This document shows, one piece after another, positions 24,363-37,628 of a stretch of DNA of 64,000 bases. The stretch spans positions 2,120,001-2,184,000 of the forward strand of contig NC_011891.1 of assembly GCF_000022145.1 (NCBI RefSeq). Reading direction: 5' to 3'. Origin of the DNA: Anaeromyxobacter dehalogenans 2CP-1. GTDB taxonomy: Bacteria; Myxococcota; Myxococcia; Myxococcales; Anaeromyxobacteraceae. The position numbers and the translations under genes are program-made. Under the pieces are notes generated by a model. That model had not been told where the DNA came from. It saw nothing but the letters and a program-made list of their open reading frames with translations, and did no database searches. Position 1 is the stretch's first letter; every line of letters starts with the position of its first letter.

Positions 24363-24691
24363 ACGTCGCCTACGTGTTCTCGACGCCGAACGCGTCGTAC
24401 ATCCTCGAGAAGATGATCGTCCCGCAGCTCGAGGAGGGCCGCCACGGCGCGACCGTGGTCGGGATGTTCTTCTTCGTGGACAACACGTATCTGCTGGTGA
24501 AGGGCAACCCCACCGGCGAGCGCCTCGCCGCGGTGGCGCGCAAGAGCGGCATGCTGCTCATGGGCTGCGACCAGTGCTGCTACCAGCGCGCCATCGCCGA
24601 CCGGCTCATCGAGGGGATCCCCATCGGCTGCTTCCCGGACCTGTACAAGGCGCTCTCGGGCGCGAAGCTCGACCAGGTGATCACGCTCTGA
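24359..24691 (+). CDS. DsrE-like small sulfur-relay-type protein with CxxCC motif
   Basis: A 110-residue protein with the DsrE/F-like Rossmann pattern: [19 protein letters not shown], a VVGMFFFVDNTYLLVKGN strand-loop and then LLMGCDQCCYQRAIA, giving three cysteines (C-x-x-C-C) in the place where DsrE-type proteins hold an active cysteine. A TTG start at 24359 overlaps the preceding stop (TTGA), so the pair is coupled; no ATG lies near. DsrE-type proteins carry sulfur or form trimers in sulfur oxidation and tRNA thiolation. My recollection is that some homologues are called SaoD, but I could not check it. It ends 15 bp before the end of the converging accessory operon. Confidence 0.6.
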   Translation: MNVAYVFSTPNASYILEKMIVPQLEEGRHGATVVGMFFFVDNTYLLVKGNPTGERLAAVARKSGMLLMGCDQCCYQRAIADRLIEGIPIGCFPDLYKALSGAKLDQVITL

Positions 24692-24706
24692 GCGGCGGAC
24701 GGGCGG

Positions 24707-25150
24707 TTACCGGCTGCCAGGGGCCCCCCATGGACCTCGCCCTGCGTCCTGTTGGCCCTCGAGCGAGTCCAGTCGATGCCGTAACGACGACACCGTCCAC
24801 TTCAGTTGCTGGCGCGCGATCAAGAGCCCGACGGATTTCCCGACGCCGATGGCGGCGACCAAGGCGAGCAGGGCGCCGCCACCGGCGAGCAGCGGCCGCT
24901 GGAAGACCAGCTCTCGGTGGTAGGAAGCGAGCACGCCGCCTGTTGCCAACGCAACGACCAGCGCGAGCGCTGCGCTGCCGCAGCCGCACGCGCGGTCGTA
25001 CCGGTTGATGCGCCTCTCCCACCGGTTCCGCTCGGCGAGGGGCATGTCCTCGAAGGCCAGCACCACGCGGCGCGCGTGGCGCCGGGCTCGGCCGAAAAGA
25101 ATGCCCCCGAGCTCGTTCGCCGTGTGCACGGTGAGGACGTCGCGGATCAC
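24707..25150 (-). CDS. Two-helix membrane protein, last gene of accessory operon
   Basis: A 147-residue protein. The N-terminal 60 residues are charged and helical (AFEDMPLAERNRWERRINRYD) with a CGCG pair; two adjacent hydrophobic segments (about residues 58-78 and 86-105) form a hairpin membrane anchor, and a short positively charged tail follows. GTG start at 25150, nine bases after the metzincin gene stop on the same strand. Base composition is lower in GC than in the neighbouring housekeeping genes, as in the rest of the operon. No family recognised. Its place at the end of the operon suggests a membrane component for the module. Confidence 0.65.
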   Translation of the reverse strand: MIRDVLTVHTANELGGILFGRARRHARRVVLAFEDMPLAERNRWERRINRYDRACGCGSAALALVVALATGGVLASYHRELVFQRPLLAGGGALLALVAAIGVGKSVGLLIARQQLKWTVSSLRHRLDSLEGQQDAGRGPWGAPGSR

Positions 25151-25159
25151 GACAGTGCC

Positions 25160-26272
25160 CTAGAAGTACGTCACGTGCTTCGAGGCGCGCCACAGCAGGA
25201 TCTGCCAGGTGCTGAGCCGCGTCATCGTCGGTGGGTCGCTCCCGTCCCAGGGAACGCCCATGAGGTTCGTCGTGTTGCTGGCCGCATCGAGATGCCAGAG
25301 GTTGCCGCTGTGACCCAGCTCGTGCGCCGCGACGCGACGGTTGATCTGCGGACCCTCGCCGCCACACGGCTGGTTGCGGACGGTGATGTAGTCGGTGATC
25401 CACAGCCCACATCCGAAGGAGCCGCAACCGCCGCCGTCGCCCGGGACGGTGCGGATGACGAAGCAGGTGATCGGCGCGCCGTAGCCGACCACACGTCGGA
25501 AGTCGCCAAAGAAGCACTTGGTGGTCGCCATGAAATCGAGCTTCGTCCCGGTCAACCCCAGGTCCGCGCCGAATCCCGACGCGTTGCACGGGACGTCGAG
25601 CGTGTCTGCTTCACTGTTGCCCCCGTCGACCTGCACCCAGTCTTCGCTCACCGTCTCGTCGCCGGCGAGCCCGGAGTCGTACTCGAATGGCGCCAGGCGG
25701 ATGACCCGGATGTTCGCCTCGCGGCGCAGGATCTCGACGGCGTGTTGCAGCAGATTGACGACATAGGGTGTGGCGGCGACCTGGTTTCCGTTCTCATCGC
25801 GGAGGATGATGGTGCAGATGCGCAGCTTCTTCTCCGGCCGGATCCCGATCAGGCCCCAGAGCGCATCCACCAGCGACGCGAGAATCCAGGCGATCGCGGT
25901 GATGAGATTCCACAGCCACTTGATCAGGCGGCCGAGGTAAGGGATCTCGAAGATGAGCTCGACCACGAGAGCGATGGCATCCAGCACCCAGCCGAGGATC
26001 GATTCGAGCGTGACGATGATGGCGTTCACGATCGTCGTCACCACGTCCCAGACCAGGCAGATGGCCGTGGTGATCCAGGTCCACCCGACACAAACCCAGT
26101 TCGAGACCCACACCCAGGCCACGCAAACCCAGGTGATGAGCTTGCATCCCCAGGAGCACGGCCACCAGTCGCAACAATTCTCGTCCCAATCCGAGCAGCT
26201 GCTCTCGCCCTCGTCCTTCCACTCGGAACACTCCTGGTGCCGCTCCTGGCCCCACTCCAGACATCTGGGCAT
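25160..26272 (-). CDS. Metzincin-like protease with N-terminal 11-residue Cys/Trp repeat
   Basis: A 370-residue protein in two parts. Residues 4-80 are a Cys/Trp-rich repeat in which a CxxW-like step recurs every 11 residues (C4, C15, C26, then C39, C50, C61, C72). Residues about 80-150 are very hydrophobic helical segments (LVVELIFEIPYLGRLIKWLW), probably membrane-associating. The C-terminal domain has the zinc motif HELGHSGNLWH (H317, E318, H321, H327) and a Met-turn (TTNLMG, M338) typical of metzincins, although the usual Gly of HxxGxxH is Asn. No signal peptide is evident. The ATG at 26272 is preceded by a gagagg site. It lies in the five-gene operon, 32 bp after the 80-residue gene and 9 bp before the last gene. 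A secreted or membrane peptidase acting on the other module proteins is inferred. Confidence 0.8.
   Translation of the reverse strand: MPRCLEWGQERHQECSEWKDEGESSCSDWDENCCDWWPCSWGCKLITWVCVAWVWVSNWVCVGWTWITTAICLVWDVVTTIVNAIIVTLESILGWVLDAIALVVELIFEIPYLGRLIKWLWNLITAIAWILASLVDALWGLIGIRPEKKLRICTIILRDENGNQVAATPYVVNLLQHAVEILRREANIRVIRLAPFEYDSGLAGDETVSEDWVQVDGGNSEADTLDVPCNASGFGADLGLTGTKLDFMATTKCFFGDFRRVVGYGAPITCFVIRTVPGDGGGCGSFGCGLWITDYITVRNQPCGGEGPQINRRVAAHELGHSGNLWHLDAASNTTNLMGVPWDGSDPPTMTRLSTWQILLWRASKHVTYF
26033..26263 (-). repeat. Coding repeat: hendecad CxxW units
   Basis: Within the metzincin-like gene, residues 4-80 contain CxxW-like steps: CLEW, CSEW, CSDW, (shifted by two) CSWG, CVAW, CVGW and CLVW. 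Cysteines are 11 residues apart within each block, so the DNA repeat unit is 33 bp. The DNA units are diverged, so the repeat is old or constrained at protein level. Confidence 0.75.
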
Positions 26273-26304
26273 GGATCGCCCTCTCGCGGTTGATGGAGGG
26301 ATCT

Positions 26305-26547
26305 TCAGCCGCAGCGGACATCTCTGCGTTGCTCCTGCCGTCTCCGGTAGCTGGTGTGCAGCCCGAGCGCGGGCAGCACCGAGACCAATGCGAGCAACGC
26401 CGCTGCGGCCATGACGTACGGGTCGTGGCGATGACCGCCGTATGCCAGGAGGCCGGCGATGGCGACGAAGACGGGTCGTAAGAAGTGAACCGCAGGGGAA
26501 GTGCGCGGAAGGCGTCGCGGTCTGCGGGCTGTGCGGGTCGTCTCCAT
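26305..26547 (-). CDS. Small two-helix membrane protein of accessory operon
   Basis: An 80-residue protein: a basic N-terminus (METTRTARRPRRLPRTS), then hydrophobic helices at about 24-41 and 48-65 joined by a short GGHRHDPY turn, and a basic tail (YRRRQEQRRDVRCG). The ATG at 26547 has an aggag site and follows the HEAT-repeat gene by 22 bp. The product is probably an inner-membrane hairpin with both ends inside, by the positive-inside rule. No family recognised. Confidence 0.65.
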   Translation of the reverse strand: METTRTARRPRRLPRTSPAVHFLRPVFVAIAGLLAYGGHRHDPYVMAAAALLALVSVLPALGLHTSYRRRQEQRRDVRCG

Positions 26548-26569
26548 GATCTGCTCCTGATGGGCGGAG

Positions 26570-27070
26570 TCAACGCGCGCTTCTCTTCTCGAGCACGTCG
26601 GCCACCGCGCGGCTGGCGCGGTGCGGGACCGTCCGCGGATTCGCTGCCTCGTAGTTGCCGACCGCGCTCTGCGCTCTGGCCGAGCCGATCGAGACGAGGG
26701 CGCGCACCGCCTCGGCCGCGAGGATCGGCGTCGTCTCGGGACGTTCGAGCATCTCGCCGAGCCGCGAGACGAACCGGTCGTCCTTCTTGCGCCCCGCGGC
26801 GCGGATGGCACGAACCGCCAGATCGGGGCTCGAGTCCTGGATCAGCAGGTCGATCGCCTCCGTCGCCTGCGGGTGGTCGATCCAGCCGAGGAGGGCCGCG
26901 GCGTTGGTCCGCACCTTGAGGCGAAGCCCGGGGTACTGCCCGAGGGCGGCCTCGCACACGACGGTGACCGCCTCGTTGCCCCACTCGACGATCGCCTCGG
27001 CGGCGGCGCTCGGCGAGAGGTCGGTCGCCGTGAGCAGCTTCATGACGCGTATCTCGTTCTCGGTCGGCAT
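26570..27070 (-). CDS. HEAT-repeat-like protein of accessory operon
   Basis: A 166-residue soluble helical protein with pairs of amphipathic helices of about 30 residues: LRLKVRTNAAALLGWIDH, ATEAIDLLIQDSSPDLAVRA, RFVSRLGEMLERPE and LAAEAVRALVSIGS. These fit HEAT-like repeats that act as binding scaffolds. There is no signal peptide. The ATG at 27070 has a gaggtc site seven bases upstream; an in-frame start at 27109 lies inside the upstream gene. It is the second gene of the operon, 11 bp after the large collagen-like metzincin gene. Confidence 0.7.
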   Translation of the reverse strand: MPTENEIRVMKLLTATDLSPSAAAEAIVEWGNEAVTVVCEAALGQYPGLRLKVRTNAAALLGWIDHPQATEAIDLLIQDSSPDLAVRAIRAAGRKKDDRFVSRLGEMLERPETTPILAAEAVRALVSIGSARAQSAVGNYEAANPRTVPHRASRAVADVLEKRSAR

Positions 27071-27081
27071 GATGACCTCGC

Positions 27082-30000
27082 TCAGTCCTGCGCGTCGGCC
27101 GTGGCGCACTGCGGGATGGTGTTGTTGCCCATGAACAGCGACCCCGCGGGCAGCGACGCCACCTTCCCGTCCTCCACGTGTGTAGCCCCGATGCGCGCGG
27201 GATCCACCTGACCGCCGTGGATCGCCATTCCATCCGAGGCATCCCAGAACGGGTACATGAGGAACGTCTCGTCGCCGCCGTCGCAGGCGCGATCGAAGAA
27301 GGTGCCCGGCCCCTCGCCCGCATCGCAGACGTGGCGCAGGCAGAGGGCGTGACCGATCTCGTGCGCGACGACTTGCTGGAGATCGACGGGGCCGAGCGGC
27401 CCACCTTCATCGCCGATGAACAGCGGTCCTCCGCCGAAGTACGCGTACGCGGTGGCGAACTCGACGTCGCGCGCGAAGAAGAAGTTGAGCGCCCCGAGCA
27501 CGCCCGGTGCCGCGGCGAAGAGCGCCCGGTCGGCCGCCGGGTCGTCGATGGGCCACGTGTTCGCGTGGACGTCGGTGGTCGAGACGTCGGTGACTCCCTG
27601 GACGAGGCGGAAGCTGATCCGAGCTTGCCCCCACGGGGCCGTCACCGAGAACGCGCCCCCCTCGCTGAAGAGGTCTGCGATCTCGGCCGCGGTACGCGTG
27701 GTCCCGCTTCCGGGGCTCGTGCCGACCACCCTGAACGCGGCGACACGCACCACGATCGTGTCGCTGATGCGGATCGCCCGCTCGTCGCGGCTCGTGCCAC
27801 CGTCCGGATTTCGCACGACGATCCGCCGGACGCCACGCAGTGAGCCGAGCGGGGCCGGCGGGATCGTGAGCGTGATCGCCGTGCGGGTCACGCTCGACGT
27901 GGGGAGCAGATAGCTCAGGGCCGGCGCCACCGAGCGATCCTCCGCGAACACCTGGGCACCACCCGCGAAGGCGAGGCCGTTCAGGACCACCGTCTGACCT
28001 TCGATCCAGCGCGGCGGCGAGGGGAGGGCGAGAAGCTTGGGAAGCACTCGCAACATCACCCGGTTGCTGCGGCGATCGGACACGCCGGCTGGTCGGAGGA
28101 CCACGGGGTGGAACCCGCCGTCGGAGTCGTTCGGGACCACGAACGCTGCGGTGGTCGCGCTCGCGACGGGCCCCACGTCCGCGCCGTCGAAGAACACGCG
28201 ATCGATCGACGGATCGAAGTTCTGCCCCGCGATCGACACGGTCTGGCCTGGCTCGGCCTCGTAGACGCTCAGGCTGAGGATGTGCGGACGGTTGAGCTCG
28301 TCGTACCATTGCTGCGGCGTGATCGGGAGGATCTGGATCGCGTCCGGGACGACGCTCGGGCCCGGCGGGCCGAACGCCCCGGGGATCCCAGCGGCGCCGT
28401 CGGCGCCGCGCGCGCCGCGTCGCTCCGGGTGCTCGTCGCACCACGTCTCGCAATCCGCGGTGCCGGCGGCGCCGCCGTTACCACCCAGGCCCGCATTCCC
28501 GGGGTCGCCTCCCGGGCCGCCACCACCGGGGTTCACGTCGATCGACGGCGGCGCCGCGTCGAGCGCGGCGATGCTCTGGTGCGTCGTGAGGAGCGTGAGC
28601 CTCCCGCCGTCGCCTCCCTTCCCTCCGGTGCCGCCGCGTCCCGCATCCCCGCCCAGCCCGCCATCGCCGCCCGACCCGACGCTGCGACAGCAGCCGCCGA
28701 AGAACGTCCCGTCTGCGCGCAGCCCGGTCGCGCCGTCGCCGCCGCGCCCCCCGTCCTGCCCACGTCCCCCGCGCCCGCCATCCTGGCCGCGCAGGTCGAT
28801 CGGCGGCAGCCCGCTCGTCGCGTTCAGCACGTACATCGTCACGATGGGCGCTGGCACGACGGCGTCGGCACCGCCGTTCTTCGTCGGGTGCGGAGCCTGA
28901 TCCCCGTCCTCGCCGTCGCCACCCTGGGCGCCAGGCGACCCACCGCTGGAGCCGGGAGCCGCCGGGCTGGGCCAGAACGCGGCCGCTGGCGGGAGGGGCG
29001 GCGTCTCCCAGGTGATGCGGGTCGCGCCGTCGTATCGGATGGACTCGACGATCACGACCAGCTCGCGGACCTCCTGCCCCACGACGACGTCCTGCCCGCG
29101 GATGTCCCACTCGCCGGCCATGACCACGGCCGTGTCGTGCAGGACGAGGTTCGGCTCGTAGTACAGGACGTTCTGCAGCAGCTCGGCGAAGCGGTACCGC
29201 GGGATCGTCGGGATCGTCCGGGGCGGCTGGACGACGGGCGCGACGTACGCGCCGACGCGGAGCTTCCGGTTCGGGTCGAGCCGGAACGATCCGAGGTCGC
29301 GAACGCTGCAGACGCCCAGCTCGGTCATGAGGGTGCGCGCGCGATCGAGCCACATCTGGATGTTCTGGGGCGCGAGCACCGCGTCGGGCTCGTCGGTCCC
29401 GAGGCCCGGGTTCTGCGCAGCCAGCGCGGTGAGGATGTTCGAGATCCGCTGCTCGACCGTCGGTTGCAGCGCGAGGCCGCCGGGGACGTGCTTCGCGACC
29501 GGTGAGCTCACCTTCACGATGCCGCCGATGGAGTCGCCCGAGGTGTTCGCGAGCGACACCCGGAACGGCCGCTTCGCGGCGACGTCCGCCGCGGAGACGG
29601 CGAGCGCGATCGTGTCCGCCCCTTCCACCTTGCGGCGGATCCGCGCGGACGGTCCGTCGATCCGCAGCTCGGCAGTCTGGCCTGGCTGGAGATCGACGGT
29701 GAACACCAGGTCGCCCGGCAAGGCGGGGAGGAGGCTCCGCGTGAACGTGGCATTGGCGCGAAGCGTGACCTGCGTCTGCACCTCGCCCCGGAGCGCCATC
29801 GCCCCCACGGCGACTCGCGCCGCGAGGACGGACTCGGCGAGCAGGCGCCGGTTGATCGGCGCCTCCCGGTCGCCGCGGAGTGCCAGCATGCGATGCATGA
29901 GCTGCTCGGGCTCGGCGGCGGCGAGGCCATCGATGGAGTCGATCCCGATGCGGGGGAGCACCCGTCCGACGCTGCGGAACTCGTCCCCGAGCGCGATCGT

Positions 30001-30876
30001 CCAGTCGGGCGGCGGATCGGGGTCCAGGTCCCTTCGCGCGACGAGCTGCACGCGGCGCGGCGGGAGGATCTCCCAGACGTCCGTCTCGTCGGTGTCGTAG
30101 CAGCTCCTGGCCTCGCCGTCGTCGAGGTCCCAGTGGATTCGCCCGAACGGTGCTTCGAGCTCCACCAGGCCGCCGTGGATGGGCACCCGCCGGTCGACGA
30201 CGTAGCGGCCGGAGTCCTTGTCGAGCGCGCGCACCCGGACCTCGTCGCCGCGTGCTCCCGCGAGCACCAAGCGCACGGTGCTCGTCCCGTGGAGCGGCCT
30301 GCCGTCGAGGCGCATCGCCACGCGGGCCACGTCGTCGGGGCGCACGGAGATCGTCCGCTCGGCGCGGCCGAGCGCGGCGGAGGCCGCGCGCACGACGTAC
30401 TCGCCCGGCTCCACCCCGTCCAGCCTGAATCGCCGGCTCACCGGATCCTGCGGCACCTCGAGTCGCCGATCGTCTCGCTCCAGCACGACCGCACCGCTCT
30501 TCACCTGCTCCCCGCCGGCGAGCTCGAGCTTCACGTCGATCGCGCCCGCCTGGCCGGAGACGCGGAGGCGCGGGAGCTCCTCGAGCGCGCTGCCGACCTC
30601 GGCGATCCGCTCGGGGGTGAGCTCGGACGCGCGGACGACCGCGCTCGCCGGCACGTAGCCCGGCGGCCGGACGATCACCTCGGCCAGCGTCTCCGCGCGT
30701 GAGTACATGCGCGGACGCGGCAGCGCCGACGGGGTCGGCAACGTGCGAGCCCAGCGCGACAAGCGCGAGGGCGGCGTGTCTCCGCCCTCGGCCCCGCCGC
30801 GCGCTCCGGATTCCCCGGGCTCTCGACGCGTCCCCGTACCGCCGCACCCGCAGTCTCGCGTGCGCTTCTGCGCCAT
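27082..30876 (-). CDS. Large protein: Cys/Gly leader, HhH-like region, collagen-like Gly-rich region, TIG-like domain, metzincin-type zinc site
   Basis: A 1264-residue protein, first gene of the operon. Residues 1-45 are Gly/Cys/Arg-rich (DCGCGGTG) and lack a Sec or Tat pattern. A strand-rich N-terminal half follows, with a helix-hairpin-like segment near 312 (LPRIGIDSIDGL) like DUF4332. Residues 640-840 hold interrupted Gly-rich, collagen-like repeats (GGDGGLGGDAGRGG, GARGADGAAG). An IPT/TIG-like domain (about 862-960) begins HILSLSVYEAEPGQTVSIAG. The C-terminal domain has HEIGHALCLRH (H1172, E1173, H1176, H1182) and a Met-turn TFLMYP (M1207), as in metzincins. A ggggggt ribosome-binding site and a strong hairpin precede the ATG. 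A modular surface or structural peptidase is inferred; no close relative is known to me. Confidence 0.85.
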   Translation of the reverse strand: MAQKRTRDCGCGGTGTRREPGESGARGGAEGGDTPPSRLSRWARTLPTPSALPRPRMYSRAETLAEVIVRPPGYVPASAVVRASELTPERIAEVGSALEELPRLRVSGQAGAIDVKLELAGGEQVKSGAVVLERDDRRLEVPQDPVSRRFRLDGVEPGEYVVRAASAALGRAERTISVRPDDVARVAMRLDGRPLHGTSTVRLVLAGARGDEVRVRALDKDSGRYVVDRRVPIHGGLVELEAPFGRIHWDLDDGEARSCYDTDETDVWEILPPRRVQLVARRDLDPDPPPDWTIALGDEFRSVGRVLPRIGIDSIDGLAAAEPEQLMHRMLALRGDREAPINRRLLAESVLAARVAVGAMALRGEVQTQVTLRANATFTRSLLPALPGDLVFTVDLQPGQTAELRIDGPSARIRRKVEGADTIALAVSAADVAAKRPFRVSLANTSGDSIGGIVKVSSPVAKHVPGGLALQPTVEQRISNILTALAAQNPGLGTDEPDAVLAPQNIQMWLDRARTLMTELGVCSVRDLGSFRLDPNRKLRVGAYVAPVVQPPRTIPTIPRYRFAELLQNVLYYEPNLVLHDTAVVMAGEWDIRGQDVVVGQEVRELVVIVESIRYDGATRITWETPPLPPAAAFWPSPAAPGSSGGSPGAQGGDGEDGDQAPHPTKNGGADAVVPAPIVTMYVLNATSGLPPIDLRGQDGGRGGRGQDGGRGGDGATGLRADGTFFGGCCRSVGSGGDGGLGGDAGRGGTGGKGGDGGRLTLLTTHQSIAALDAAPPSIDVNPGGGGPGGDPGNAGLGGNGGAAGTADCETWCDEHPERRGARGADGAAGIPGAFGPPGPSVVPDAIQILPITPQQWYDELNRPHILSLSVYEAEPGQTVSIAGQNFDPSIDRVFFDGADVGPVASATTAAFVVPNDSDGGFHPVVLRPAGVSDRRSNRVMLRVLPKLLALPSPPRWIEGQTVVLNGLAFAGGAQVFAEDRSVAPALSYLLPTSSVTRTAITLTIPPAPLGSLRGVRRIVVRNPDGGTSRDERAIRISDTIVVRVAAFRVVGTSPGSGTTRTAAEIADLFSEGGAFSVTAPWGQARISFRLVQGVTDVSTTDVHANTWPIDDPAADRALFAAAPGVLGALNFFFARDVEFATAYAYFGGGPLFIGDEGGPLGPVDLQQVVAHEIGHALCLRHVCDAGEGPGTFFDRACDGGDETFLMYPFWDASDGMAIHGGQVDPARIGATHVEDGKVASLPAGSLFMGNNTIPQCATADAQD

Positions 30877-30887
30877 GGAACCCCCCG

Positions 30888-30927
30888 GCTGCCCAGGGCG
30901 ACGAGGCAGCTCGTCGCGCTGGGCAGC
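30888..30927. promoter_or_regulatory. Near-perfect 18-bp inverted repeat upstream of large metzincin gene
   Basis: Arms gctgcccagggcgacgag (30888-30905) and its reverse complement (30910-30927) differ at one base and flank a gcag loop. It sits 12 bp upstream of the ATG of the leftward operon, abutting the ggggggt ribosome-binding site, so it could be an RNA hairpin controlling translation or a dimeric operator. Confidence 0.6.
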
Positions 30928-31012
30928 AGACCGGACATGCTCGCGTTCGTGACGGGTCCCGATCCGGTCCGCGCGTGCGTCGGGCTCCGCGCCTCCGTCG
31001 CATGGGCGGCGG

Positions 31013-31076
31013 TACGCTCCGCAGGGGCCCGTACGCTCGCGGCGTGTCTCCGTCGCCGCAGCGACCGGTTACGCTC
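31013..31076. promoter_or_regulatory. TACGCTC direct repeats at 19-bp multiples
   Basis: The heptamer TACGCTC begins at 31013, 31032 and 31070, that is 19 and 38 bp apart. Near-multiples of two helical turns would suit a protein binding several sites on one DNA face. With only three copies, chance is possible. Confidence 0.3.
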
Positions 31077-31190
31077 TGTGCTGGTTCGCTCGTTGGACTG
31101 GACCCGCCGGTCTCGGTCACATCGACGGATCGCGCCGTCCACTCCTGGTGACCTCGCGTGCAACCGCGAGCGAAACGACGGAGCGGCCAC

Positions 31191-31442
31191 ATGGCGTCCG
31201 AAGGTCACGAGCACGAGGGCAGCCACATCGAGATCCGCGAGCGCGAAGGGAAGCCGGAGCTCCGGATCGACGGCAGGCGCGTCGCTCACGGACGGTTGCC
31301 GAACGGGATGTACTTCCTGGACGACTACGCCTTCGACTGGACGGACGACCTGATGGAGCTCGCGCGGCGGTACGTCAGCCACCGGCGCCGGGCGCAGCAG
31401 ATCCGGGCCAGGTCCTCCGCGTCGAAGGAAGGTGCGTCATGA
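31191..31442 (+). CDS. MelC1-like tyrosinase copper caddie
   Basis: An 83-residue protein, His-rich at its start (MASEGHEHEGSHIEIRER), with an ELRIDGRRVAHGRLPNGMYF strand-turn and then the helix LMELARRYVSHR. This pattern of D-G-x-x, a short hydrophobic strand and an L-A-R helix matches MelC1, the Streptomyces caddie that delivers copper to tyrosinase MelC2. Unlike MelC1, it has no Tat signal. The ATG at 31191 has a ggag site; the GTG at 31158 adds a basic leader without features. Its TGA overlaps the ATG of the tyrosinase gene, so the pair is translationally coupled. The family call is by pattern and position rather than by alignment. Confidence 0.6.
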   Translation: MASEGHEHEGSHIEIREREGKPELRIDGRRVAHGRLPNGMYFLDDYAFDWTDDLMELARRYVSHRRRAQQIRARSSASKEGAS

Positions 31443-34063
31443 GGTGCCGCAAGAACTACCGCGACCTGGACGCCGCCGAGCGCGACCGCCTGGTCCAGGC
31501 GCTCCACCACGCGAAGGCGGCAGGCGTCGTCGACCAGTTCGCCAGCGAGCACGAGGCCCACTTCAGCCACGGGATTCACACGAGCTCGCACTTCCTGCCG
31601 TGGCATCGCGAGTTCATCCGGCGCTTCGAGGACGCGCTGCGCACGTATCACCCCCAGGTGACGCTCCCCTATTGGAACTCCGTCGTCGACCGCAGCCCGT
31701 CGGACTCGCTGTGGGACGGTCCGTTCCTCGGCCAGTTCGACTCGGCGTGGAACCTCGATCGGGCGCTGGGATCCGACACGCTGCCCACCGAGGGTCAGCT
31801 GAACACGGCGCTAGGCCGCGGGACGTACGACACGTTCTGGCCCGACCTCGAGGTCAACCTCCACAATGCGCCGCACCGGTGGGTCGCGGGGAAGATGGCG
31901 CAGCGCGACTCACCCCACGACCCGGTGTTCTACCTCCACCACTGCTGGATCGACCTGCTCTGGGCGCAGTGGCAGCTAGGCCATCCCACCGCGCCGTTCG
32001 TCTCGAGCGGAGCCGGGGCGGGGCTCACGGATCCGCTGATGGGGTACACCACCACGCCCGCGGACGTGCTGGACCATCGGACGATCAACGTCTATCGCTA
32101 CCCCCCGGGCTTCGTGCAGGACACGCCGCGCGTCACGCTCGACACGCCCGTCGTCAACTTCATCGAGGTGCCCGCCGGCGAGACGCGGATGGGCGCTGCC
32201 GTGTTCTCCCTCGACGCGTGCGAGACGCTGCACTTCACCGTCGTGAACGGACCCGTCGTGACGGCCGGGCCGCCGGGGACGTTCGGGCTTCCTGGGTCGC
32301 CCGGGCCGGCGGACCCGCACGTCGACGAGAAGGGACGGGTCTGGTTCACGTACACGGCGACCGCTGCCGGCGACGTCTCGGAGGGCGCCGCGACGATCAG
32401 GTGCGACGAGACCGGCGATCAGTTCGCCGTCGCGCTGAGGGCCAACACGATCGCTCGACCGACGGCGGCGATGGTGATGGTGCTCGATCGATCGAACAGC
32501 ATGACGTTCGACTCGGGGGTCGGCGCAGGCGTGACGCGGGCGGACGTCCTGAGGTTCTCTGCGCCCACGGCGGTCGTCGTTCTCGAGGACACGAACGCAA
32601 TGGCGGTGTGCAGCTTCGATCACGACGCGCATCCGGGCATCCCGATGACCGAGGCCGCCGGAGCCGGGAAGCTGACCATCAGCGCGGCCATCCAGAGCTA
32701 CGCGCCGAATCCGAACGGGTGGACCTCGATCGGAGAAGGGGTCGCGCTCGCGCACGGCATCGTCGCCCCCGTGACCGACCACGAGGTCAAGGCGCTGGTC
32801 GTCCTGACCGACGGCGAGGAGAACCACGGTCCGCACGCTCGACGCTACATCCACGACGTGGAGGACCTGATCGCGTCGCTCAACGGGCGCGTGTATGCGA
32901 TCGGCCTCGGCCGCGCCGAGATCCTCAACCCCGTCGCGCTCCAGGCGCTGTGCAGCGGAAACCGCGGCTACCTGCTCATGACGGGCGACCTCACGCCCGA
33001 CGCGACCTACCGGGTGGCGAAGTACTACCAGCAGATCTTCGCCGGCGTGACGAACCACGACATCGTGCTCGATCCTCAGGGATACGTCGGTCCCGGCCCC
33101 GAGGTGCGCATCCCCTTCTGGCTGGCCGACACGGACATCTCGGCGAAGGCGTTCCTCCTGGCGCCCGCGCCCCACGCGATCCGGTTCCGGCTGGAGACGC
33201 CCGACGGCGACATCATCGATCCCGCGGTCGCGAGCGCCCACCCGACGCTCGCGTTCGAGGCGGGGCACCAGGTGGCGCTGTATCGCCTCGGGCTCCCGGT
33301 GCCGCTCGGCGGGAAGAGCGCGCATGCGGGCCGGTGGTACGCACGGCTCGGCGTCGAGAACGCGGGCTACAAGCGGTATCTCTCGTCGCTCGAGGATCGG
33401 TCGGCAGGGCGCGCGACCGCCGCGGCGCACGGCATCCTGTACAACTTCAACGTGCACGCGTACTCCAACCTGAGGATGCGCGCCACGCTGTCCCAGACGA
33501 GCAACGTGCCCGGCGCGAGCCTCGGCGTGCGCGCGGTCCTGACCGAGTACGGCCTGCCCGTGGCCGGGCGCGCCCACTGTCGCGCGGAGCTCACGCGCCC
33601 AGACGGCGCGGCGTCGACGCTGCCGATGCCCGAGGTGCAGCCGGGCGCGTTCGAGACATCGTTCACGGCCCATGCTCACGGGATCTACCCGCTTCGGATC
33701 CTCGCCGAGGGGAGGACCCTGCGCGGGCTGCCCTTCACGCGCGAGCAGCTCCTGACGGGCGCCGTGTGGCGCGGCGGAGACGACGCGCCGACCGTGAAGG
33801 ACGATCCAGACCGCGACCGTGACCGGGTGTGCAGCCTCGTCGCGTGCGTCCTCCGCAGCCGCGGCGTGCTCGGGGTGCTGAGCCAACAGGGGATCGATCC
33901 GGAGGAGCTCCGCCGCTGCCTCGCCGAGTATTGCCGGAAGCCCTCGCCGGGCGAGCCGTCCCACCTCGCCTCGTCGGACGTGGAAGGCAGGCTCCGCGTG
34001 ATCCTGCGCGACGAGAACACGCTGCGCGCAGTGATGGAGATGATCAGGCCTGCGCTGGAGTGA
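31439..34063 (+). CDS. Tyrosinase fused to von Willebrand A domain
   Basis: An 874-residue protein. Residues 1-210 are a type-3 copper tyrosinase: CuA with H47 and H56 in the family FLPWHREF context plus an upstream His (H38, H41 or H44), and CuB with H142, H146 and H168 (HNAPH, YLHHCWIDLLW), with His spacing equal to Streptomyces tyrosinase. A Gly/Pro linker leads to a VWA domain (about 345-545) with a MIDAS motif DRSNS (D350, S352, S354) and VVLTDGEEN. The rest is strand-rich with a C-terminal CRRC-like helical segment. No signal peptide. Tyrosinases oxidise phenols to quinones that can cross-link proteins. The fusion to VWA is unusual to me. It is coupled to the caddie and convergent with thiD. 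Confidence 0.9.
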   Translation: MRCRKNYRDLDAAERDRLVQALHHAKAAGVVDQFASEHEAHFSHGIHTSSHFLPWHREFIRRFEDALRTYHPQVTLPYWNSVVDRSPSDSLWDGPFLGQFDSAWNLDRALGSDTLPTEGQLNTALGRGTYDTFWPDLEVNLHNAPHRWVAGKMAQRDSPHDPVFYLHHCWIDLLWAQWQLGHPTAPFVSSGAGAGLTDPLMGYTTTPADVLDHRTINVYRYPPGFVQDTPRVTLDTPVVNFIEVPAGETRMGAAVFSLDACETLHFTVVNGPVVTAGPPGTFGLPGSPGPADPHVDEKGRVWFTYTATAAGDVSEGAATIRCDETGDQFAVALRANTIARPTAAMVMVLDRSNSMTFDSGVGAGVTRADVLRFSAPTAVVVLEDTNAMAVCSFDHDAHPGIPMTEAAGAGKLTISAAIQSYAPNPNGWTSIGEGVALAHGIVAPVTDHEVKALVVLTDGEENHGPHARRYIHDVEDLIASLNGRVYAIGLGRAEILNPVALQALCSGNRGYLLMTGDLTPDATYRVAKYYQQIFAGVTNHDIVLDPQGYVGPGPEVRIPFWLADTDISAKAFLLAPAPHAIRFRLETPDGDIIDPAVASAHPTLAFEAGHQVALYRLGLPVPLGGKSAHAGRWYARLGVENAGYKRYLSSLEDRSAGRATAAAHGILYNFNVHAYSNLRMRATLSQTSNVPGASLGVRAVLTEYGLPVAGRAHCRAELTRPDGAASTLPMPEVQPGAFETSFTAHAHGIYPLRILAEGRTLRGLPFTREQLLTGAVWRGGDDAPTVKDDPDRDRDRVCSLVACVLRSRGVLGVLSQQGIDPEELRRCLAEYCRKPSPGEPSHLASSDVEGRLRVILRDENTLRAVMEMIRPALE

Positions 34064-34078
34064 GCCGGCGGCGCGACG

Positions 34079-37449: not shown

Positions 37450-37465
37450 CCCCGGAAGCATCTCC

Positions 37466-37614
37466 CCCCGACCCAGAGTCGTCCGCGGAACCGCGTTCCG
37501 GCGCGGGGGCGCGTCAAGGCTGCCCGGCGCAAGTGCTCGCAGCGCCGGCGGTTTCACCGCCAGACGGCGGCCGATCGCGTCATCGCCTGCGTCAGGATGA
37601 CTCTGGGTCGGGGC
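37466..37614. terminator. 19-bp inverted repeat framing the gap between convergent genes
   Basis: ccccgacccagagtc at 37466-37480 recurs as its reverse complement at 37599-37613; four more bases inside match with one mismatch (18 of 19). The arms lie 118 bp apart and bracket smaller hairpins such as ggcggtttcaccgcc. It is between the ends of the GH57 and marC genes, so it could form a large bidirectional terminator, or be the ends of a small repeat element. Confidence 0.45.
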
Positions 37615-37628
37615 TCAGGGGTCGGGGG

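Follow-up and report, generated by a model that had tools for sequence, protein, structure and literature searches.

Do seven genes that arrived together in a bacterial genome also work together? The question is raised by a locus of Anaeromyxobacter dehalogenans 2CP-1, a member of the Myxococcota with a closed genome of 5.03 Mb and a guanine plus cytosine (GC) content of ~75%. The locus lies in a stretch of 64,000 nucleotides (contig NC_011891.1; hereafter the window, whose positions are used below), and an earlier interpretation made from the letters alone (the sequence-only reading) had presented it as a candidate module comprising a tyrosinase-VWA protein, a copper caddie, two metzincin-like proteases, a HEAT protein and two membrane proteins, proposed to cross-link a protein matrix through quinones and to process it by proteolysis. 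We found that the seven genes are a single horizontally acquired insertion and that, judging from their sequences, the two genes on its plus strand belong to a rare mobile family with interchangeable enzyme heads on one conserved tail, often accompanied by head-specific partner genes. This tail family is the finding, and a seven-gene matrix system is unproven.

All seven open reading frames (ORFs) are present where they had been placed, with intergenic gaps of 9 to 32 bp in the five-gene operon on the minus strand and an overlap between the two genes of the plus-strand pair. That they form a discrete unit is best seen in another genome of the genus (G081), in which positions 1-24704 and 34065-64000 of the window are contiguous at ~92% identity. 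This empty site delimits the following feature:

24705 to 34064, no strand: strain-specific insertion of ~9.36 kb with exactly seven genes; its flanks are joined in G081

The insertion and the seven genes differ in extent by no more than a few bases, and they separate thiD from a short DsrE-like ORF that ends at 24691. Neither the 370-residue protein of the operon nor the tyrosinase-VWA protein occurs in the other eight genomes sampled from the genus, so that a gain in the window lineage is simpler than loss elsewhere. No direct repeat common to both junction regions was found, and there is no recombinase among the seven inserted genes. The lower GC content that the sequence-only reading had estimated by eye was confirmed by calculation, being 0.706 for 24707-34063 compared with a mean of 0.755 (standard deviation 0.027) for 139 same-size windows of the same genome, six of which are as low. 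Likewise, GC at third codon positions is 0.77-0.92 in the inserted genes versus 0.97-0.996 in three flanking genes, although the empty site is stronger evidence for insertion than composition. A further genome (G064) has no cluster protein in the 40 kb read, where the thiD side is present and the left flank is not conserved, so that the junction is uninformative. Another strain difference lies near the insertion, at 37457-37624, where the window has 167 bases versus ~2.1 kb in G081.

The plus-strand pair has the following features:

31191 to 31442, plus strand: small caddie-like partner gene (83 residues), no signal peptide; 4 bp ATGA overlap with the tyrosinase gene
31439 to 34063, plus strand: tyrosinase-VWA protein (874 residues); Pfam Tyrosinase 1.7e-24 and VWA 8e-6; has full-length relatives
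31439 to 32119, plus strand: tyrosinase head, from Pfam and six copper-binding His
32120 to 34060, plus strand: conserved tail (chassis), ~647 residues here and ~600 in the family; immunoglobulin (Ig)-like domain, VWA, beta-sandwich, filamin-type Ig domain and C-terminal helices
32453 to 33058, plus strand: VWA domain with a complete metal-ion-dependent adhesion site (MIDAS; DxSxS, T, D), from the MIDAS residues and a fold match
33836 to 33940 (approximate limits), plus strand: C-terminal Cys-containing helical segment, from profile matches on tail proteins

Thus, the tyrosinase and VWA calls made from the letters alone were borne out by Pfam, as was the HEAT call in the operon (HEAT_2, 3e-9). 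Six histidines of the head (H41, H50, H59, H145, H149 and H171, in the numbering of the translated stretch) match the conserved His columns, and by its Pfam domain and these six residues it is a type-3 copper tyrosinase, with phenol oxidation as its predicted activity. The tail, which was defined from two alignments (A3 and A4) of 18-19 proteins, gave an AlphaFold2 model with a predicted local distance difference test (pLDDT) score of 81.9 and a predicted template modelling score of 0.76. Its VWA fold is unmistakable, and the MIDAS residues are conserved in 18 of 18 aligned tails at four positions and in 17 of 18 at the fifth. In a profile search of PDB sequences, the VWA domain best matched PTMP1, a proximal thread matrix protein of the mussel byssus (2.1e-15), followed by the VWA domain of CLCA1 (8.5e-13), and the last beta domain matched filamin repeats. 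Of the 25 proteins with this tail that are described below, most carry the Cys-containing helical segment; at E <= 1e-3, it matched none of the other ORFs in the loci fetched.

Head and tail of the window protein have different nearest relatives, which makes it a chimera. The head shares 60% identity with a tyrosinase from Methylobacter whose own tail is of the fungal-lectin type, and the closest tail among the relatives found (45% identity) carries a subtilase head. When compared with a Reyranella protein (L015), the head is 25% identical and the tail 43%.

How widespread is this tail, and what does it carry? A Caballeronia plasmid protein carries it with an M14 carboxypeptidase as its head. 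When 84,980 species genomes were scanned using the tail alignment and VWA-type patterns, at least 44 loci were returned (these counts being lower bounds). At least 18 of them (L014-L030 and L032) resemble the tail along most of its length, the others being VWA matches that are more distant or cover less of it. Profile searches added one copy from the Myxococcota and second copies in Kribbella and Aquabacterium. The analysed set amounts to 25 proteins, including the window protein and three plasmid copies, so that the tail occurs in at least 24 further proteins, at 30-45% identity, in Proteobacteria, Actinomycetota, Bacteroidota, Myxococcota and Haloarcula. The family is nevertheless rare, with a profile match in three of 193 Myxococcota genomes (one of the three weak) and, at a strict cut-off, in the query genome alone among 398 genomes from its phylum. 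A phage origin of the tail was rejected, as it is absent from phage records and viral contigs.

Five unrelated head types were found among these at least 25 proteins, namely tyrosinase (11), LodA quinoprotein oxidase (5), subtilase (S8; 3), M14 carboxypeptidase (3) and M64 peptidase (3). Heads were called by Pfam, or by alignment for five tyrosinases (L010, L020, L024, L028 and L032) and one LodA (L025). Independent cases are fewer than 25, because L010/L028 and L016/L017 are near-identical pairs. On a maximum-likelihood tree of the tails, in which many mid-tree branches are weakly supported, the heads require seven changes, compared with a minimum of four and a mean of 13 after shuffling. Well-supported branches force at least three origins for tyrosinase and two each for M14 and M64, and LodA forms a single clade. 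The tail sequences thus show that heads were exchanged repeatedly on one conserved tail.

A LodA-headed tail protein of Aquabacterium (L029:8621-12047) is split over two frames, by damage or sequencing error; that genome also contains an intact copy with a tyrosinase head (L092:9333-12128). The tyrosinase-headed protein of Actinomadura parvosata (L024:9008-11629) ends early, with a stop inside the profile match. At greater distance, a Chlorobiota protein (L037:4069-6140) combines a metzincin motif (HEAGHFFGLRH) with a VWA domain and is distantly similar to the tail. A protein from the Myxococcota genome G019 (L062:9044-11728) combines HEFGHLFGFAH with a VWA domain weakly matching the tail profile, and is possibly a metzincin-headed distant relative.

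Partner genes recur according to the head. A LodB-like gene follows all five LodA heads; LodB is a maturation flavoprotein for LodA. Small homologous genes directly precede the M64 heads (three of three) and the M14 heads (three of three), and their products gave nothing significant against PDB. No recognised partner gene accompanies the S8 heads. The caddie-like gene is upstream of four of the 11 tyrosinase heads, window included, two of these four being near-identical, and also of two tyrosinases with other tails. Homologues were seen directly upstream of tyrosinases in Microvirga (L009), Haloarcula (L010/L028), Methylobacter (L012) and Streptomyces (L013); on the Microvirga and Haloarcula plasmids, the small gene precedes full-length tyrosinase-VWA relatives, and the five-gene operon is not present. 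In Methylobacter (L012:2897-4991) the tyrosinase tail consists of fungal-lectin repeats, and in Streptomyces (L013:11748-13743) of repeats of no assigned family.

The sequence-only reading had named the small protein a copper caddie. Its position directly beside tyrosinases agrees with this, as opposed to its sequence, which matches neither MelC1 (no Pfam family at E <= 10) nor any solved caddie chain. The protein does contain an invariant Tyr, Tyr41. A profile of five caddie-like sequences weakly matched 2jv8 in PDB (E 0.003), which is NE1242 of Nitrosomonas, a solved but uncharacterised protein for which this suggests a role as a tyrosinase partner.

None of the 25 tail proteins has a signal-peptide-like hydrophobic core at the N-terminus, according to a hydropathy rule. 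From the architecture, MIDAS, partners and exchange read in the sequences, we infer a route that would comprise release, docking and surface chemistry. Lacking a signal peptide, the enzyme would be synthesised in the cytoplasm, where its partner (LodB, a caddie-like protein or one of the small proteins encoded beside M14 and M64 heads) would mature it or keep it inactive. Cell lysis or a non-classical route may then release it. The VWA domain would dock on a protein or polymer surface via its metal site and the head would modify that surface, the window head by oxidising tyrosine or phenols to quinones. We give roughly an even chance to this reading as a whole, that is, one acquired insertion that brought in a member of a head-swapping tail family, whose signal-less enzymes are guarded by partners and tethered to surfaces via VWA. 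In its favour, the PDB sequences nearest to the VWA domain, PTMP1 and CLCA1, are extracellular proteins.

Several points weigh against it. VWA and Ig domains are common and occur in cytoplasmic proteins too. The lack of signal peptides was read from hydropathy, at start codons that are uncertain, and not from a trained predictor, and export route, substrate, binding partner and activity are all putative. The guard idea does not hold throughout, because the S8 heads and seven of the 11 tyrosinase heads lack a recognised partner, and the two damaged or truncated copies (L024 and L029) indicate that such genes can be lost.

The same data admit two other settings for the tail proteins. Having no signal peptide in 25 of 25 cases, they may act in the cytoplasm with the VWA/Ig tail as an assembly platform, much as VWA domains serve in the building of TFIIH and other complexes inside cells. 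However, tyrosinase, LodA, S8 and M64 enzymes are usually extracellular in action, and a free cytoplasmic tyrosinase or protease would be harmful; we hold an intracellular role to be quite improbable. Alternatively, the interchangeable heads, patchy spread and head-specific partner genes may point to weapons against neighbours, with the partners as immunity proteins or inhibitors. LodB, though, matures LodA and is not an immunity protein, the heads are enzymes acting on outside substrates, and neither a toxin-delivery domain nor a secretion gene was seen beside the loci. LodA-type enzymes are indeed antimicrobial through hydrogen peroxide (PMC4417212), and polymorphic toxins also have a constant body, exchangeable catalytic domains and partner genes (PMC3482391). 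In the tail family, by contrast, the variable part is N-terminal, the heads are oxidases or peptidases, and no delivery or immunity element was recognised; export or trafficking domains were found neither by Pfam nor by NCBIfam, and a signal-peptide-like core is lacking. Antagonism therefore appears to us unlikely, if not negligibly so.

What, then, does the minus-strand operon add? Its five proteins, in the order 5' to 3', and their zinc motifs are:

27082 to 30876, minus strand: 1264-residue protein with a Gly-rich/collagen-like stretch, IPT/TIG (TIG 1.8e-6) and a C-terminal metzincin-like motif
27331 to 27363, minus strand: HEIGHALCLRH zinc motif of the 1264-residue protein, by motif reading
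26570 to 27070, minus strand: HEAT-repeat protein (166 residues), HEAT_2 3e-9; PDB matches are alphaRep chains
26305 to 26547, minus strand: 80-residue membrane protein; hydrophobic segment 42-66, plus a weaker second one by eye
25160 to 26272, minus strand: 370-residue protein, Cys/Trp-rich, with an N-terminal hydrophobic region and a C-terminal metzincin-like motif
25292 to 25324, minus strand: HELGHSGNLWH zinc motif of the 370-residue protein, by motif reading
24707 to 25150, minus strand: 147-residue membrane protein with two hydrophobic segments, 54-78 and 85-105

The zinc motif of metzincins is HExxHxxGxxH/D, accompanied by a Met-turn. Both putative proteases have HExxHxxxxxH, with C (1264-residue protein) or N (370-residue protein) at the usual Gly. 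The former has a candidate Met-turn (FLMYP) downstream and a Reprolysin_5 match below the family cut-off (E 2.4e-4), and the latter has a downstream Met as a possible Met-turn and no Pfam match. These metzincin assignments, drawn from motifs and sub-threshold matches, are weaker than the other domain calls. In the 1264-residue protein, Gly-X-Y triplets occur in runs of 7 to 9, and collagen is not established because the Gly runs are partly poly-Gly-II-like; by hydropathy, the N-terminus of this protein has no hydrophobic segment or recognisable export signal. The 370-residue protein contains 6.5% Trp and 4.6% Cys, and its predicted structure (pLDDT 46) was unusable. By sequence, the operon looks like an unrelated set, with processing, anchoring or merely travelling with the tyrosinase as candidate roles.

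The sequence-only reading had made joint recurrence of the seven genes the test of its module, and no such recurrence was seen in the material searched. By tblastn, the operon proteins had no match in the loci of 20-odd tail proteins, the only loci against which the HEAT protein and the two small membrane proteins were searched. The 370-residue protein has no match in PDB and no full-length relative in 193 Myxococcota genomes, 396 Actinomycetota genomes, 18 tail-carrying genomes or plasmids, plasmids or viral contigs. The 1264-residue protein has no full-length relative in plasmids, and when searched as two parts, against Myxococcota (both parts), viral contigs (N-terminal part) and plasmids (C-terminal part), it gave only weak local matches. 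These negatives are bounded by the sampling and by a positive control confined to the bacterium's own genome. L014 was rejected as a homologue of this protein. On a plasmid of Caballeronia insecticola, an unannotated region (L011:7894-13791) encodes an M14-headed tail protein, its small upstream partner and a divergent metzincin-like protein of 706 residues. The latter was also rejected as a homologue, being alignable only at the zinc motif, and the neighbourhoods of its plasmid relatives have no common theme. Tyrosinase-VWA relatives are thus found with the small gene or alone, and never beside the five-gene operon. Measured by conserved company in other genomes, as the sequence-only reading had proposed, the seven-gene system fails, whereas its two-gene part and the VWA tail hold.

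This bears directly on the idea of one matrix machine, in which quinones made by the tyrosinase would cross-link the Gly-rich 1264-residue protein and the metzincins would trim it. That the single insertion contains exactly these seven genes would fit, as would the collagen-like runs, the divergent metzincin neighbour of the Caballeronia tail protein, and a VWA domain that is nearest, among solved structures, to the collagen-associated PTMP1, albeit an animal matrix protein without an enzyme head. Predicted quinone cross-linking of a protease-processed matrix is also compatible with the head repertoire of two oxidases and three peptidase classes. Still, no second operon was found near any tail protein or in the genomes searched, the Caballeronia metzincin resembles the 1264-residue protein at the zinc motif only, and the presumed matrix protein has no recognisable export signal. 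We consider such a machine very unlikely. Much more probable, only slightly short of an even chance, is that pair and operon are two independent cargo units of one insertion, with no joint function. The pair recurs elsewhere without the operon, and the two are divergently transcribed across a gap of ~310 bp. On the other hand, the insertion boundaries enclose only these genes, and a tight divergent layout with nothing else between would also fit co-regulation. For the tethered-enzyme reading, any link of the pair to the metzincin operon, like the tether to surfaces itself, is something we infer.

With regard to known systems, no family library (Pfam, NCBIfam, PADLOC or PHROGs) names the seven-gene set. 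No anti-phage defence system was recognised by PADLOC models, the HEAT protein giving a marginal match to OloA (E 0.0099). In text searches of the open-access literature, we found no description of the shared tail. The closest precedent is a report from 2015 of two isolated fusions of LodA-like quinoproteins to vWA, in Amycolatopsis vancoresmycina and Cryptosporangium arvum, and of lodB-like genes beside lodA-like genes (PMC4417212). These fusions also join an oxidase head to VWA, but, as compared by description only, the shared tail, the four other heads and the exchange of heads are absent there. CLCA metalloproteases have a similar order of protease, VWA, beta-sandwich and Fn3-type domains and are patchy in prokaryotes (PMC3650047); however, they have one head family versus five, and the tail has no Pfam match to CLCA-specific domains. 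The window protein itself has a tyrosinase in place of the CLCA_N zincin head, with no CLCA_N Pfam match. Finally, Streptomyces MelC1/MelC2 likewise has a small protein encoded beside a tyrosinase (PMC6312201), in contrast to the window pair, which lacks signal sequences and in which the small protein has no MelC1 match and the tyrosinase carries a large tail.

The family is significant in that enzymes of at least five unrelated classes have replaced one another on a single tail, in two domains of life and with dedicated partner genes. A bolder version, which we regard as speculative and rather improbable, would see a mobile class of signal-less enzyme-adhesins in bacteria and archaea, the tail being re-armed with oxidases or peptidases together with the matching guard gene, and the adjoining operon supplying novel accessory machinery for the release or anchoring of the window copy. 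More immediately, the family gives a name and boundaries to proteins annotated so far only as tyrosinase, VWA or hypothetical, and NE1242 gains a candidate function. Should the tail serve for docking, every head would predict a chemistry on the same kind of target, and the function of the family would be testable through its heads.

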